Under the pieces are notes generated by a model. It was not told the DNA's origin, did not search any database, and was given only the letters and a program-made list of their open reading frames with translations. Below, piece by piece: positions 1,177 to 8,869 of a stretch of 64,000 bases of DNA (positions within the stretch are counted from its first letter, which is position 1; each line of letters opens with the position of its first letter). Location of the stretch: positions 1,984,001 to 2,048,000 of the forward strand of contig NC_016051.1 in NCBI RefSeq assembly GCF_000151205.2, given 5' to 3'. Both the position numbers and the translations under genes were made by a program. The DNA is from Thermococcus sp. AM4. Lineage in GTDB: Archaea; Methanobacteriota_B; Thermococci; Thermococcales; Thermococcaceae.

Positions 1177-1427
1177 CTCCTTCACCGCCTTTTTACGTTC
1201 ATTCTCGCCGGCCTTTATGAACTTTATCGTGCCCCGGAGGGGATTCATGGAAAGGGACGGGAATCTGGGAGTTGGGGTAGTACGGGCTTAATATGCTCAA
1301 TCCGTGTAATTGAAACGCCGTTCTGGGTATTTTGGGCAAATGGAACGATTTGAAACGTTTTTCCCTTCCCATTCCCGCCGCATCCCTCATATAGAACTTC
1401 CTCCAAACCCACAACAGGTGATGAGAT

Positions 1428-2432
1428 ATGATGGGGAAGCTGAAGGTGTGGTTCGTTATCATCCTGATAGTGCTTTCACTCGTTCCGGTCTACACTGTGA
1501 CGGCCGAGAGCTCCGGCACCGACTCCAGTGTCGTCACGAACTCCACGCTGAACCAGAGTGCAAACGCCACCCGGGTTGCCGCGGAGGTAATGCTCAGAAA
1601 CCTTGAGAGGCTTCAGAACTACACTGCCTCTCTGATCAACGGGACCGAGAACATCAGTGCCGAAACGATGGAGCTCTACGAGAGGGCCCTCAACCTCACG
1701 GACGAGGCCAGGACCCTTTACGCCGAGGGAAGATACAGGGAGTCCCTTCACACCGCGATACTGGCGATGAAGGCTTACAGAGACGTCATAAGGAGCGTAA
1801 GGTTCGGCATCGAACCCGAGCTGATGAGGGAAATGATCCGGATCAGGGCAGAGGTCATGAGGATGCACTGTTACTTCGGGCACGTCAGAATGCTCATCAG
1901 AGCTGCCGAGATGCACGGCCTGAACGTTTCCAACGTAACCGTGCTCCTGAACCAGACCCGCGCGGCCTATCTCAAGGTCCTCCGGGATCTGAGGACCAAC
2001 GACACTGCCCTTGGTCCAGACCTCGAGCGTGCTAGGGAGCTCAGGAAACAGCTCGACATGGAGCTCGAGAGACTCCAGATGCAGTTCGCGATCAAGAAGG
2101 CCGACAGGATAGCGAGGGCCTTTGACTGGAGGCTTGAGATGATGATAAGGGCCCTCGAGAGGATGAGGAACGTTCCGGGCTTCAACACGACCGCCATCGA
2201 CAACCTCACCCAGGAGCTCAACCAGCTCAGGATCAGGGTGGACCAGCTCGTCAGGGAGGGCAAGTACGTTGAGGCGCTCCACCTCATAAAGGAATCAACG
2301 CCCAAGCTCATCAGGAGTGCGGTGCACCTCAGGTGGATACACAAGGACCACAGGATATACTGGCCGGTGGAGCGGGATCACCGCAGGGGCTCTTTCCACT
2401 CCCACCACGAGAAGGGAGAGCGCGGCCACTGA
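1428..2432 (+). CDS. Secreted helical protein of unknown function
   Basis: Protein of 334 residues starting with a signal peptide (MMGKLKVWFVIILIVLSLVPVYTVTA, likely cut near residue 26). The rest is predicted to be long amphipathic helices rich in Glu, Arg and Leu, with at least ten Asn-X-Ser/Thr sequons, as expected for a glycosylated extracellular archaeal protein. There is no C-terminal membrane helix; the tail is His/Arg rich. Start ATG 1428 follows a GGTGA site (AGGTGATGAGAT) and a TATA-like CTCATATAG near 1388-1397. An oligo-T stretch follows the stop. I do not recognise a family with an assigned function. It lies directly upstream of another secreted/membrane protein (2499), but that gene seems to have its own promoter. 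Confidence 0.75.
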   Translation: MMGKLKVWFVIILIVLSLVPVYTVTAESSGTDSSVVTNSTLNQSANATRVAAEVMLRNLERLQNYTASLINGTENISAETMELYERALNLTDEARTLYAEGRYRESLHTAILAMKAYRDVIRSVRFGIEPELMREMIRIRAEVMRMHCYFGHVRMLIRAAEMHGLNVSNVTVLLNQTRAAYLKVLRDLRTNDTALGPDLERARELRKQLDMELERLQMQFAIKKADRIARAFDWRLEMMIRALERMRNVPGFNTTAIDNLTQELNQLRIRVDQLVREGKYVEALHLIKESTPKLIRSAVHLRWIHKDHRIYWPVERDHRRGSFHSHHEKGERGH

Positions 2433-2442
2433 CCCTCTCTCA

Positions 2443-2463
2443 TTTTTTGGGTTACGTTTTTAA
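2443..2463 (+). terminator. Oligo-T terminator overlapping the next promoter
   Basis: A run of six T (2443-2448) follows the stop at 2432, typical of archaeal termination. Immediately after it CGTTTTTAAT (2455-2463) looks like the TATA box of the gene starting at 2499, about 40 bases further on. Confidence 0.45.
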
Positions 2464-2498
2464 TCGTCGTCTGGATAGAGAGCTTTGAGGGATGAAGG

Positions 2499-3551
2499 AT
2501 GAGGCTTAAAGCAGCTTTCATCGTCGCGCTCATGCTGGTGCTTTCCCTCGCAGCTTCCGCGGGGGCCCAGTCGGTCGTCTCGCTGTCCCTAAAGGTCTAT
2601 GAGGACGGCTACGTTCTCGTAAACGAGACGGTATCGACCGTGAACTACAGCGTTGTCCTGGAGGTTCCCCTGCTAGGGAGCCACGTCGAGGGCCTTCTTG
2701 CGGTGGACCAGGACGGCAACGTCCTCCCCGCCGAGGTGAACGGAAGCAACGTCACGGTCTACTTCGGAAACGCCAGTCTGGTGAGGCTCTCCTACTACAC
2801 CCCCGATCTAACCTCCAAGGACGGCCCGATATGGACAGTTTCCCTTCAGAGCCCCGTCCCCGTCGAGATAACCCTCCCCAGGAATTCGGTTATCGTTGAT
2901 CTGAGCGACATCCCCCTTGAGATCAGGGGCAACGTGATAGTCATGCCCGCCGGAAACGTGAGCGTCTCTTACATAATACCCATGGAAACCACGACCACTA
3001 CCACAACGACCACAACCACAGCGACCTCTCCCCCCACGACGACCTCCACAACGACTACAACTACCACCTCACCAGGTGGCGGTTCAGGCCCTACGTCCTC
3101 CACAACTACCACCTCAACGACTACCACCTCAACAACGACTTCCAGCACAACCACTACCACAACAACCACAACGACGACCTCAACGACCCCTGGTACTCAG
3201 GGGGGAGGCGGATCCGTGGGAACGTGGCTCCTGATCCCGATCCTGCTCATCGGCGTGGCCCTGGGGTATGCCTACATCAGGAGGAAGGAAGGGCATCGAA
3301 GTCAGAACCCGGAGGCCCTCAGGAAGTTCCGGGAGAAGATAGAGGCCATGGAGGATCTCAACGATGACGAGAGGGGTGCGCTGATATTCCTCCTCGAGAA
3401 CGGCGGCAAGGCTCCGCAGTCCAAGGTCAGGGAAGCCCTCGGTCTGCCCAAGACAACGGCATGGAGAATGTTCAAGAGGCTCGAGGAGAGGGGGCTCGTC
3501 AGGGTTTACAAGCTGGGAAGGGAGAACTGGGTTGAGCTCGTGCTCGAGTGA
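2499..3551 (+). CDS. Membrane-anchored winged-helix protein with extracellular domain and Thr-rich linker
   Basis: 350 residues in a clear order: signal peptide (residues 1-24), extracellular beta-rich domain (about 25-160) with several N-glycosylation sequons, a long Thr-rich linker (about 163-228) broken by Gly/Pro segments, one membrane helix (GTWLLIPILLIGVALGYAYI, about 236-255), then a basic stop-transfer and a cytoplasmic winged-helix domain ending ...GLPKTTAWRMFKRLEERGLVRVYKLGRENWVEL. The topology puts a DNA-binding-type domain inside and a possible sensor outside, which suggests one-component signalling across the membrane. This is inference; related Thermococcales proteins are annotated only as helix-turn-helix proteins. 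Start ATG 2499 follows GGGATGAAGG. The extracellular domain is not one I can name. Confidence 0.75.
   Translation: MRLKAAFIVALMLVLSLAASAGAQSVVSLSLKVYEDGYVLVNETVSTVNYSVVLEVPLLGSHVEGLLAVDQDGNVLPAEVNGSNVTVYFGNASLVRLSYYTPDLTSKDGPIWTVSLQSPVPVEITLPRNSVIVDLSDIPLEIRGNVIVMPAGNVSVSYIIPMETTTTTTTTTTTATSPPTTTSTTTTTTTSPGGGSGPTSSTTTTSTTTTSTTTSSTTTTTTTTTTTSTTPGTQGGGGSVGTWLLIPILLIGVALGYAYIRRKEGHRSQNPEALRKFREKIEAMEDLNDDERGALIFLLENGGKAPQSKVREALGLPKTTAWRMFKRLEERGLVRVYKLGRENWVELVLE
2980..3195 (+). repeat. ACN-rich low-complexity tract encoding the Thr linker
   Basis: Imperfect runs of Thr codons (ACC, ACG, ACA, ACT) with two Gly/Pro breaks. It is coding sequence for the extracellular linker of the membrane-anchored winged-helix protein, not an independent element. 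Similar tracts occur in this window at about 46380-46585 and 53868-54080. Confidence 0.8.
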
Positions 3552-4670: not shown

Positions 4671-7541
4671 ATGGCGGAGAAAAGGATAAGGTGGGCGAGA
4701 AAAGAGTATTCGGACGAGGAGATATTCTCAATCCTCAGCGAGCCGGTTAGGGAGTGGTTCAGGCGAAAGTTCGGGAGCTTCACGCCCCCACAGCGCTACG
4801 CGGTTATGGAGATTCACAAAGGCGAGAACGTTCTCATCTCCTCGCCGACCGGCTCTGGAAAAACGCTCTCCGCTTTCCTCTCGGCTATAAACGAGCTGAT
4901 TCTCCTCGGGAAGGAGGGCAAACTCGAGGATAAAATCTACGTCCTCTACGTCTCACCGTTGAGAGCTCTCAATAACGATATAAAGCGCAACCTGGAGGGG
5001 CCCTTGGCCGAAATCAAGGAAGTGGCAAAGGAGCTCGGCTACGATTTGCCCGAAATTCGCGTCGGCATAAGGACGAGCGACACGTCGAGCTACGAGAAGA
5101 GCAAGATGGTGAAGAAACCTCCCCACATTCTGATAACCACCCCGGAGAGCCTTGCGATAGCTCTAAACGCCCCCAAGTTCCGCGAGAGACTGAAGACGGT
5201 TAAGTACCTTATCATAGACGAGGTTCATGCTTTGGCCGAGAACAAACGCGGTTCTCACCTGGCTTTGAGCGTTGAGAGACTTCAGGAGATGGCCGAGGAG
5301 AGGTTCGTGAGAATCGGCCTCAGTGCGACGATACACCCGCTCGAGGAGATAGCGAAGTTCGTCTTCGGCTTCGATGACGACGGGGAGCCGAGGCCAGGTC
5401 TCATCGTTGACGTAAGCTTCGCCAAGCAGACCGAAATAAAGGTCGAGAGCGTCGTCGAGGACCTAATCTACACTCCTGCCGGAGCGCTGAGCGAGGCGCT
5501 CTACAGGAGACTGGCAGAGCTTATCAGGGAGCACAGGACGACGCTGATATTCACCAACACGAGGAGCGGTGCCGAGAGGGTTGCCTTCAACCTGAAGAAG
5601 CGCTATCCCGAGTTTGAAGGCCTAATAGAGGCGCACCACTCAAGCCTGTCGCGCGAGGTTAGGCTGGACGTTGAGGAGAAGCTGAAGAGGGGCGAGTTAA
5701 AAGCAGTAGTGTGCGTTCCGGGTCATTCCAAAATTATTACCTCCAGAGGCATTAGAAGAATTGACGGTCTTAGTGTAGATGAGGAAATCGTGGGAGTTAA
5801 AGAATCAAGGAGTCGTTTTGTTGAGTTTGGGGGAACTCACAGAATCGAATACAACTCGACTGGTGTCAAGCTTAAGACAAGGCTCGGCTTTGAAGTTGAA
5901 GCCACACGAGAACATAAGTTCCTGACGATAAAGGATGGAAAGCTCACCTGGGTTGAGGTTGAGAAGCTTAAACCGGGTGATTACGTTGGAGTTCTGCGCA
6001 GGTTGCCAAGTCCTGATGAAGAAGTTCCCATTTTTGAAATCCTCCCGGACTCCGCATACCTGCACCTTCGAACTGAATTTCTAAGGGAGCTGAAGAAGAA
6101 CATTCAGACTAAATTCTGTTCAATTAACGCTTTTGCAAGAAAGCTAGGCATGAGTGGAAGCTACTTATCGAAGCAACTCCTAGGGGAGTATCCATTTAGG
6201 TGGAGCAAACTAAAAGTAGTCCTCCAGGAAGTTGGAATGACCCTTGACGAAAGCGACGTGGTGAGGATAACTTCCGACAAAAACAGCTATGAATTGCCGA
6301 AGAGGTTCACACCTGGGCTGGCTCGATTGCTCGGTTTCTGGATTGCCGATGGTTCGTGGAAAGATGGCACGGTAACGCTGTTCTCCAGCGATTTGGACAT
6401 GCTTAAGCATTATGCCAAGCTCGCCAAAGAGGAGCTCGGAATCGAGGGGAGCATAAGAAAGCAAAACGAGAATACATACTCTCTTGAGCTTTCCTTTAAC
6501 GTTCTTTTTCACATGTTCAGAGAGTTCGTTGGGAATGGGGGCAAGAAATCCCTCAACGGCAGATTTCCAGAGATACTCTACCGCCTTCCAAAGGAGCACA
6601 AAGCTCAGTTTCTCTCGGGATATTTCGATGGTGATGGATACCTTGAGATAAAAGAAGGCAAGCGAGTGTATTCAGCGGGCTTCGCTACGTTCAACCCCGA
6701 GTTCGCCGAGGGGATACGAAATCTCTTGCTTCAGCTCGGAATCGTTGCCTCCATCAGGAGAAGACATTATAATGAACGGCAATTCTTTAGGGGCAGGGAG
6801 ATAAGAAAGACCGGGACGTCTTACACTGTTGCTATCTTGGGAGGAGAGTACCTCAGGAAATTTGCGGAACTAGTTGAACCTTGGCGCCCAGGGCTTAGAA
6901 AGATAAAGGAAATCCCTGTGGAAGGATACTCCAACCATGATGTAATCCCAGGAATCGGCAAACGCCTGAGGAAGCTTCGAGAAACTCTTGGCATTACCTC
7001 GTACATGCTTCAAAAGGCTGGCTTTTATAATCCTGTGAAAGTCGAACTCGGAACCCGTGAAATCAGCAGAAGAAACTTGGTGAAACTCCTCAATTTTTAT
7101 GAGAGAGTTGCAGGAGAGGGGAAGGTGGAAGGCGTAATCCCCGAAATCGAGGAGCTTAGAAAACTCGCTGAGGGAGACGTTTTCTTTGATAGAATTGAAT
7201 CCGTTGAATCTGTTTTCATCGCCGATGCCTATGGCATATTGAACTCCAAAACAGGGAACTACGTTGTCAATGGCTTCGTCTCAAAAAACAGCTCAACGAG
7301 CCTTGAGCTCGGGATAGACATTGGAACGATTGACTTAGTTGTTCTAATCGGCTCGCCGAAGAGCGTGAATCGCGCTTTACAGAGAATAGGGAGGGCCGGC
7401 CACAGGCTACACGAGGTCAGCAAGGGAGTTATTTTGGCTCTCGATAGAGATGACCTGGTCGAGGTCACCGTTCTGGCGCACAACGCGAGGAACAGGCGCT
7501 TAGACCGCGTCAGAATTCCAAAGAACCGCTCGACGTCTTAA
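4671..7541 (+). CDS. Lhr-type ATP-dependent helicase, N-terminal part, interrupted by an intein and ended early by a frameshift
   Basis: Superfamily 2 helicase of the Lhr (large helicase-related) family, a cytoplasmic DNA/RNA unwinding ATPase with repair roles. Residues 1-347 carry the Q-like region (FTPPQRYAV), Walker A (SSPTGSGKT), DEVH box ([14 protein letters not shown]), GLSAT motif III and the start of RecA domain 2. Residues 348-873 (bases 5712-7289) are an intein inserted inside motif V, between KAVV and [10 protein letters not shown]. The extein then resumes with motif VI ([11 protein letters not shown]). The frame stops at 7541, but the natural continuation ...[14 protein letters not shown]... 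lies one frame over from base 7526, so one C seems to be missing near 7526-7527. Without intein and frameshift the protein would be about 880 residues, usual for archaeal Lhr. Confidence 0.9.
5712..7289 (+). mobile_element. Intein with LAGLIDADG homing endonuclease in the Lhr helicase
   Basis: 526 codons. The N-terminal splice block begins with Cys1 ([10 protein letters not shown]); block B has the TxxH signature in ATREHKF; the two LAGLIDADG motifs are LLGFWIADG and [10 protein letters not shown]; the C-terminal blocks are [26 protein letters not shown], shown here in part as [11 protein letters not shown], followed by Ser as first residue of the C-extein. The final Asn needed for cyclisation is present, but the usual penultimate His is replaced by Lys. 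Two additional helix-turn-helix-like stretches occur (around [20 protein letters not shown] and [18 protein letters not shown]). Base composition is clearly more AT-rich than the helicase around it, as expected for a mobile element. Insertion in motif V, the catalytic core, is typical of inteins. Confidence 0.93.
7524..7528 (+). other. Frameshift site in the Lhr helicase gene
   Basis: The upstream frame reads Lys-Asn (AAG AAC) then goes out of register and stops at 7539-7541. Reading CCG from 7526 restores [11 protein letters not shown] and continues without interruption to 8869. A single lost C in the CC pair at 7526-7527 (real mutation or sequencing/assembly error) explains it. No classical slippery heptamer is seen. 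Confidence 0.85.
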
Positions 7542-8869
7542 CTCAACACCTCCTCGGAATGGCCCTGAACAGAGTATGGGAGGTTGATGAAGCTTACCGC
7601 GTCATCAGAAGGGCCTATCCCTTCAGGGATTTGCCCTTCGAGGACTTCATGAGTGTTTTGAGGTACTTGGCCGGAGAATATGCCGGACTGGAGGAGCGGA
7701 AGGTTTACGCCAAGATATGGCTGGAGGACGGGAAGTTCGGAAAGCGCGGAAAGATGACGAGGGCGATTTACTACATGAACGTCGGCACGATTCCCGATGA
7801 GGCCAAAATCAGGGTTTACACAATGGACAAAAAGCTAATAGGCACAGTTGAGGAGGAGTTCGCCGAGAGGCTGATGCCCGGCGACATCTTCGTCTTAGCT
7901 GGAAGAACCTACGAGTTCGTCAAGAGCCGTGGAAACAAGCTCTACGTCATCCCGCGCGAAGGTGCTAAGCCGACTATTCCGGCGTGGTTCTCGGAGATGT
8001 TGCCTTTAAGCTTCGATTTAGCGGTGGATATTCAGCGCTTCAGGAGGGAGGTTAAGAGCTTACTCAACAGGAAGGACGCCGTTAAAAGGTTGATGAGGAA
8101 ATACGGGATAGATGAAAAGGCCTCGCGCGCCATAATCGCTTACTTCCGCGAGCAGGCGAGGTATTCAATAGTTCCGGATGACGAGACGGTCCTTGTTGAG
8201 TTCGTTCCCGGAAAGCGGAACCGCTACTTCTTCCACACGCTCATAGGGAGGCGCGCCAACGATGCTTTAAGCAGGGCCTTCGCCTACCTCGTGAGCAAGA
8301 AAAAGAACTGCAACGTCGGGATAGCGATAAACGACAACGGCTTCGCTTTGCTCCTTCCGCCGGAGGTTGAGCTGAGCGAGAAGGAGGTGATGGAGCTTTT
8401 CGAGGTTGATGACCTGAGGGAAACGCTGAAGAGAGCCTTGGACAACACCGAGCTGTTGAAGAGGCGCTTCCGCCACGTCGCCAACCGCGGGTTGCTAATT
8501 TTGAGGCGCTACGTCGGGAGGAGCAAGAGGCTCGGCAGGCAACAGGTCATGGCGGTCTCGCTACTCAAGGTGCTCAAGGAGAACTATCCCGACTTCCCGC
8601 TCCTGAAGGAGGTCTACCGCGAGATTATGGAAGACAAGATGGACGTGGAAAACGCGGAGTCCTTCCTGAGCTGGGTCCGCGAGGGGAAGATAAGGGTGGT
8701 CTTCCAGAGGAACGCCGTTCCCAGTCCCTTCGCCTTCAACCTTGAGGCAATAGGCTCGAGCGACGTGGTTCTGATGGAAGACAGGAGGGAGCTGATTAAA
8801 GCTCTCCACAGAAAAATAATGGCGATGATAAAGGAAACGCAATCAGAAGACGTTGAGCTTGTCGTCTAA
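7526..8869 (+). CDS. Lhr-type helicase, C-terminal part (continuation after frameshift)
   Basis: About 447 codons that continue the helicase from [20 protein letters not shown]. This is the winged-helix and Lhr-core C-terminal region, needed with the RecA domains for unwinding. It has no start codon or ribosome binding site of its own before the internal ATG at 7559, and its sequence shows no further damage. An intact downstream half argues that the frameshift is recent or is a sequencing error, not an old pseudogene. If translated alone from ATG 7559 it would lack any ATPase motif. The end overlaps the convergent AdoMet synthetase gene by 27 bases. Confidence 0.85.

Follow-up and report, generated by a model that had tools for sequence, protein, structure and literature searches.

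We found that a two-gene unit of Thermococcus sp. AM4, comprising a gene for a secreted helical protein (A) and a gene for a transmembrane protein with a cytoplasmic winged helix (B), recurs in most Thermococcales and in a second archaeal phylum, and that a candidate DNA site, GRAACG-N2/3-CGTTYC, lies directly upstream of a weak BRE/TATA before many A genes of both phyla. The reading that we favor, and regard as moderately probable, takes B to be a one-component regulator tethered to the membrane, which activates A and a small number of other genes, most of them for the surface; A would probably act back on the sensor. Our search of open-access literature, subscription papers aside, found no description of the A-B pair or of the GRAACG site. 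The window, by which we mean the whole analyzed stretch of 64,000 nucleotides, belongs to a closed 2.09-Mb genome, and the relevant features are collected in Table 1. Elsewhere in the window, a helicase-like ORF with an apparent intein (by reading) occupies 4671-7541; it stops at 7541 and has an in-line continuation from 7559 in another ORF (436 aa; region 7520-7600), so that the gene looks split or frameshifted around 7541/7559.

Table 1. Coordinates of the A-B unit in the window, with the basis of each assignment.
Feature	Position	Strand	Details and basis
Candidate operator, upstream half	1341..1359	+	TGGAACGATTTGAAACGTT; two half-sites 10 bp apart
Conserved core-promoter element	1378..1393	+	CCGCATCCCTCATATA; weak BRE and TATA-like
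A, secreted; partner of B and presumably its main target	1428..2432	+	334 aa
TATA-like gtttttaatc before B, presumed separate operator-free B promoter	2456..2465	+	Inferred
B, transmembrane one-component regulator	2499..3551	+	350 aa, ATG start, frame open throughout
B signal peptide	2499..2567	+	About residues 1-23; hydropathy; cleavage position putative
B exported beta sensor domain	2562..2993	+	Residues 22-165; AlphaFold; ribophorin I/Ost1 and M1-aminopeptidase N-domain fold
B Thr/Ser stalk, lineage-specific	2976..3206	+	Residues 160-236; composition
B membrane helix	3216..3272	+	Residues 240-258; hydropathy
B cytoplasmic winged helix, DUF7343	3345..3542	+	Residues 283-348; profile match
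B presumed recognition helix PKTTAWRMFKRLE	3447..3485	+	Residues 317-329; analogy to wHTH families

In the first-pass annotation, B was read as an exported beta domain carried on a stalk, with a single membrane helix leading to a winged helix in the cytoplasm, and this order is upheld by hydropathy, structure prediction and the match to PF24034. The hydropathy profile has an N-terminal peak at residues 5-23 and a single internal peak at 240-258, and the membrane helix is followed by YIRRKEGHR, a positive-inside segment that therefore gives B an N-out/C-in orientation. The C-terminus lies above the gathering cut-off for PF24034 (DUF7343; E 2.1e-10, 40.7 bits against 27.6) and for HTH_24 (26.0 bits against 21.9), and slightly below the respective cut-offs for MarR_2 and TrmB; several B relatives score marginally below the DUF7343 cut-off, for example 26.5 in L046. 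Input and DNA-binding-type output domains share one polypeptide with a membrane segment, with no kinase or receiver domain, an architecture by which B can be classed as a transmembrane one-component regulator in which signal-controlled DNA binding is predicted. The Thr-rich stalk, which had been taken as a defining part, did not hold up as such. Although residues 160-236 of the window protein include 48 Thr and 11 Ser in 77 positions, just 9 of the 53 B proteins in which an internal membrane helix was detected have a run of at least four Thr, a count that omits five further B proteins showing no internal peak by our crude hydropathy test. A common B paralogue of about 279 aa carries only a short linker in its place, and the stalk is dispensable and no fixed component of B. 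The Thr-rich matches from the initial genome search (L002-L006, with many more rows) were discarded as low-complexity similarity to other stalks rather than relatives.

The sensor domain has no Pfam family by sequence in the window protein and no convincing one among 50 members, and the N-domain profile found nothing in the PDB up to E 1. Structure prediction, suggested earlier as a check, gave an all-beta AlphaFold model of residues 22-165 (pLDDT 94.3, pTM 0.88), whose best Foldseek matches are N-domains of M1/M61 aminopeptidases and Ost1 (E 7e-5 to 1e-3). In VIA-align the top match is Ost1/ribophorin I (7oci_A; Z 12.8, rmsd 2.8, 143 of 144 residues), followed by 1z1w at Z 11.5, with the M1/M61 enzymes at Z about 10-11.5. 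The sensor thus modeled appears to have the same fold as ribophorin I/Ost1, and this likeness, seen in one model only, could reflect descent or a common beta arrangement. The luminal domain of ribophorin I/Ost1 and the M1/M61 N-domains resemble B in fold, whereas the proteins that contain them have no winged helix and serve in other roles. Proteins with the B sensor and a C-terminal hydrophobic tail, without a winged helix, are encoded in L074 (2679-3275) and L081 (967-1563) and by frames of about 190-200 aa in genomes of the g13 group; in L074 and L081 we take the tail to be CGP-CTERM-like, and it had no NCBIfam match. The one in L081 sits behind an A gene, and such proteins could act as decoys for A.

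The N-domain profile of B matched 98 of 115 genomes of the window's phylum and 88 of the 94 in its own family, a conservation that rules out chance for B. The earlier expectation that such an arrangement is rare in hyperthermophiles therefore fails: the A-B system is common in the Thermococcales. Six family genomes are without detected B, four of them less than 83% complete and two 96-99% complete, and within the window's class the ten genomes of another family (f3) yielded no N-domain match. In a first set of 60 stretches fetched around A or B matches, A directly adjoins B on the same strand for 56 of the 58 HTH-bearing B genes. One of the two exceptions is in G048 (family f5) and the other in G060, a genome of another phylum, where an A-like ORF lies behind B with a first-pass E of 6e-5, while a longer stretch of the same genome scored none below 1e-2. 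Ten stretches of the first set carry A-B-A-B tandems. The distance matrices of A and B correlate with r 0.928 over 46 full-length family pairs, a value reached by 0 of 1000 shuffles of paralogues within the 10 multi-copy genomes (maximum r 0.886), and nearest neighbors agree for 18 of the 23 compared, where shuffles average 6.7 and never exceed 17. Tandems, distance correlation and nearest-neighbor agreement together indicate that A and B copies evolved as pairs.

Partner A begins with a signal peptide, followed by nine long helices that form three three-helix repeats (model pLDDT 85.7). Pfam and NCBIfam gave no convincing match and no enzyme signature, Foldseek found nothing significant for the model (best E 0.095), and the matches of the A profile in the PDB are generic helical proteins. 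On the opposite strand beside A, the window encodes a DUF134 protein (PF02001; 838-1248). Second A copies without B, with the promoter element present, were seen in eight stretches (L045, L052, L055, L058, L063, L071, L086, L093), and a leucyl-tRNA-synthetase-like ORF lies near six B-less second copies, including those of L045, L055, L063, L071 and L093.

The phylum of G060 provided a second view of the pair. Archaeal AmoA was found in 6 of the 12 genomes searched, G060 and five others of its family f8, which identifies this phylum as the one with the ammonia-oxidising archaea. The B N-domain occurs in 54 of 121 sampled genomes and 35 of 69 genera there. We assembled a second set of 40 B stretches from this phylum (604 ORFs), calling a gene A-like at E <1e-2. 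By this threshold 30 of the 40 stretches contain an A-like gene, at most 400 bp from B in 27 of the 30, in 14 convergent, 10 A-first and 6 B-first arrangements. The neighborhood is kept while the gene order changes, which argues for a functional tie between A and B. This tie had been proposed from the window alone, together with co-occurrence in other genomes as its check, and both sets of stretches support it. The A profile found no new match in 824 control ORFs (852 minus 28 known A). Because its iterated form drifted (50 of 167 ORFs below 1e-4), first-pass values alone were used; two B stretches, L298 and L299, had no A at E <1e-2, while one was found in L231, a stretch covering the L298 gene. 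In a FastTree of 95 proteins, a split with support 0.80 has 52 of 56 first-set B proteins on one side and the 39 second-set proteins on the other, where the remaining four of the first set, all from family f2 (L094, L096, L097, L100), also group. Several B proteins of the second phylum have a helical hairpin, similar to one A repeat, between beta domain and membrane helix. A single hhalign comparison of these inserts from 12 proteins with A gave a probability of 84.8 and E 6.5e-6, which is suggestive of a partner joined to its sensor, with the caveat that both sequences are helical and charged. A separate protein of this phylum (L261 4072-5331) combines a B-like sensor with a membrane tail and has no winged helix; the gene behind it is A-like and has the site.

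The candidate site emerged from the A promoters. An alignment of 66 of them yielded a core-promoter element, [AG][CT]CGnnYCCT[AC]A(A/T)ATA, that stands behind the GRAACG half-sites and whose end lies roughly 30-45 bases upstream of the start codon. The exact palindrome GRAACGnnCGTTYC precedes 31 of the 66 A genes and has no other occurrence in those stretches (457,085 bp), a count made on the very sequences that yielded the motif; 16 of the 66 promoters have no match even at 3 mismatches. The second phylum is the fairer test. With the 2-bp spacer the exact site occurs in 5 of the 40 stretches, always before A, two of these (L279, L294) having been known earlier. When a 3-bp spacer was also admitted, which we did only after inspecting the second-set promoters, the site precedes 15 of 30 A genes with no occurrence elsewhere in 330,220 bp, and a looser form allowing G/A at the inner base precedes 17 of 30 against 3 occurrences elsewhere. 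The looser site is present in 10 of the 14 convergent A promoters, in which A and B are transcribed from separate promoters. No B promoter carried the site in either set (0 of 62 and 0 of 40). Since the site lies before A whatever the orientation of B, and never before B, the presumed target is A and not B itself. Some A-B pairs are B-first operons without a visible site (for example L262).

Across the window's family, the composite of palindrome and core-promoter element was listed at 83 sites, spread over 67 of the 94 genomes, against 12 matches of a reversed-pattern control. It was absent from the six family genomes without detected B, and exact palindromes were absent from the ten genomes of f3, which is also without B. 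The composite pattern has no match in the window's own genome. An exact palindrome at 217458 of that genome lies inside a PIN-like ORF and is taken as chance; other exact palindromes in relatives (L190-L192, L195, L196) fall in coding sequence or are without the core-promoter element and were not considered targets, and other genes with the core-promoter half but no palindrome in front (L177, L179, L180, L183) were not counted.

The A promoter of the window itself departs from the palindrome by 3 bases. Matches to the 2-bp-spacer palindrome with at most 2 mismatches number 12 in the window, against 13.7 expected, and none is at the A promoter. The upstream half of its own site is, at up to 3 mismatches, the sole match in the window (0.08 expected), and its 18-base core has no other 0-mismatch match in the genome. 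Both parts of the window element recur in six orthologues of the same subtype (L048, L054, L062, L077, L085, L092), and in promoters of this subtype a GTTTC-like half-site follows the first two half-sites after about 13 bases rather than 2, which places it one helical turn further. Comparison with these relatives alone leads us to accept 1341-1393 as a putative split variant of the site. The second A copy of the same genome (1227797) carries GAAACCTCCGTTTC and CACCGGGTTCCTGAAATA. T-rich boxes resembling the one before B in the window are found before B in L048, L054, L062, L075 and L077, and such a TATA-like box of its own may keep B at a steady level.

There are several possible explanations for a conserved site beside this gene pair. 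Most simply, B itself would be what binds there, given that site and recognition helix are equally conserved. The stretch [IL]PKTTAWRMF[KR]RLE, which contains the presumed recognition helix, is the best-conserved segment of the entire B protein, and B proteins of the other phylum have P[KR][TS][TS]xWR at the corresponding place. One could suppose instead that a different transcription factor reads the site and that B accompanies A for another reason, as the site-free B promoters might suggest as long as binding by B is itself deduced. Yet site and B co-occur in two phyla, are jointly missing from f3 and the six B-less genomes, and are matched by a near-invariant recognition helix, so that we hold this to be quite improbable. 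A further alternative is that the winged helix does not bind DNA at all and that B anchors some other protein at the membrane or serves it as an adaptor. Winged-helix folds are able to bind protein, and the sequence matches of this one to solved DNA binders are weak (LrpA, E 0.0046), but it is PKTTAWR and the basic RMFKRLE turn that top the conservation of B, and a conserved site beside the partner gene requires a reader; this alternative seems to us very improbable.

Most composite-element sites are A promoters. The other genes with the element, taken from part of the listed sites and including 16 additional element stretches, encode proteins of a few kinds. A membrane-anchored LamG protein (PF13385) has the element or a close variant in 4 of the 4 members found in 61 genomes. 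The element also lies upstream of a secreted GH39-like protein in G015 (PF01229, 6e-14), of DUF257 proteins in G099 and G103 (PF03192, 1e-39), and of a small protein family of about 110-140 aa in seven stretches (G098, G101, G103, G108, G062, G063, G030). The small-family ORFs mostly end in GPGGFEPPTTRL, presumably because they read through into a tRNA gene, and L363, L365, L367, L368, L370, L371 and L193 show an apparent one at the 3' end. Three of the 16 added stretches (L373, L374, L376) have no ORF starting within the expected range. With LamG and GH39-like surface proteins among the element genes and no enzyme signature in A, the pair might be a structural unit of surface attachment or matrix, in which the winged helix keeps surface genes in step and no true sensing takes place. 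A well-conserved outer domain wired to a DNA-binding domain would however be costly for anchoring alone, and the element also precedes genes for DUF257 and small proteins of unassigned location. We consider a purely structural unit unlikely.

The position of the site bears on the direction of control. TFB-RF1 of Pyrococcus furiosus (PF1088) has a palindromic site TCTGAANTTCAGA directly upstream of a weak BRE, from which it recruits TFB and activates the promoter (PMC5937170). The same source gives VRAAA as the BRE consensus of Thermococcales and places the TFB-RF1 gene in an operon behind its first target, an ABC transporter (PMC5937170). At A promoters the site likewise immediately precedes a BRE that departs strongly from VRAAA, and this TFB-RF1-like position favors activation over repression. 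The two systems differ in target and site, and the accessible part of that source names no exported domain for TFB-RF1 (PMC5937170). By reading, TCTGAANTTCAGA was not found at A promoters, which have GRAACG half-sites instead. The opposite sign of control would have B repressing A, its winged helix standing in the way of TFB/TBP or RNA polymerase until released by a signal from outside. The site does touch the core promoter region, and many archaeal winged-helix proteins are repressors; but it lies upstream of the BRE, neither over the TATA box nor over the start site, and the conserved core promoter looks weak, as would fit a need for an activator. Repression is rather unlikely in our estimation.

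For activation by B we propose the following scheme. The beta domain would lie outside the membrane, and the single helix would pass its signal inward. The winged helix, more likely tethered than released by proteolysis, would bind GRAACG half-sites, probably as a dimer or higher oligomer, reading them as GRAACG-N2/3-CGTTYC or, in the window type, spread across an extra helical turn. From upstream of the weak BRE, B would most likely recruit TFB/TBP and so activate the promoter. Its constant target would be the neighboring A gene, joined in some genomes by second A copies, LamG, the GH39-like enzyme and the small proteins. Exported A most likely meets the outer domain of B, closing a feedback loop through which B would read the amount of free A, or of intact surface. 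A secreted feedback target appears to fit the promoter data better than A as a plain ligand, the other role that the first-pass annotation had offered.

A comparable loop is known from the bacterial Cpx system, in which the secreted helical protein CpxP is the main target of the very system whose sensor, CpxA, it restrains through the outer domain. By analogy, CpxP/CpxA-like feedback would be a natural reading of A-B. Cpx consists of a kinase and a response regulator, whereas B is one polypeptide; histidine kinase and response regulator domains are absent from B, which is thereby no Cpx-type two-component system. Among archaeal proteins, those with a membrane segment and a helix-turn-helix, like B, are presumably what is annotated as COG2512 'membrane-associated transcriptional regulator'. 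ArnR and ArnR1 of the Sulfolobales archaella system are likewise membrane-anchored archaeal HTH regulators, described as membrane-bound activators of surface-structure genes, with an N-terminal HTH, HAMP-like and sensing domains, and two C-terminal membrane helices (PMC6396743). B differs from ArnR in its exported N-terminal beta domain, single membrane helix, C-terminal winged helix, dedicated secreted partner and different site, and the N-terminal HTH and paired C-terminal membrane helices of the ArnR family are absent from it. The output principle, a transmembrane one-component regulator, is therefore known, whereas the open-access literature searched has no description of this sensor domain, of its dedicated secreted partner or of the site.

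To our knowledge, how archaea convey the state of their envelope to their genes is poorly known, and few membrane-bound archaeal regulators have been studied. A precise candidate site and a short target list make binding, direction of control and signal directly testable, and the pair, found in most Thermococcales, is presumably present in tractable laboratory strains as well as in ammonia-oxidising archaea. In its widest form, which we put forward tentatively as possible though doubtful, A and B would make up an ancient surveillance system of the archaeal surface, spread over two phyla or more. A single chain would then combine the tasks of sensor kinase, response regulator and activator, its ribophorin-I-like outer domain reading the level of A and setting the A gene through a site shared between the phyla. 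On this view the A-like hairpin within several second-phylum B proteins would look like a partner joined to its sensor, and the ribophorin I domain of eukaryotes might descend from a surface sensor of this kind. A site kept across phyla beside the same gene pair would be unusual for any archaeal regulator, and its presence before A in distant archaea suggests an old way of watching their own surface.
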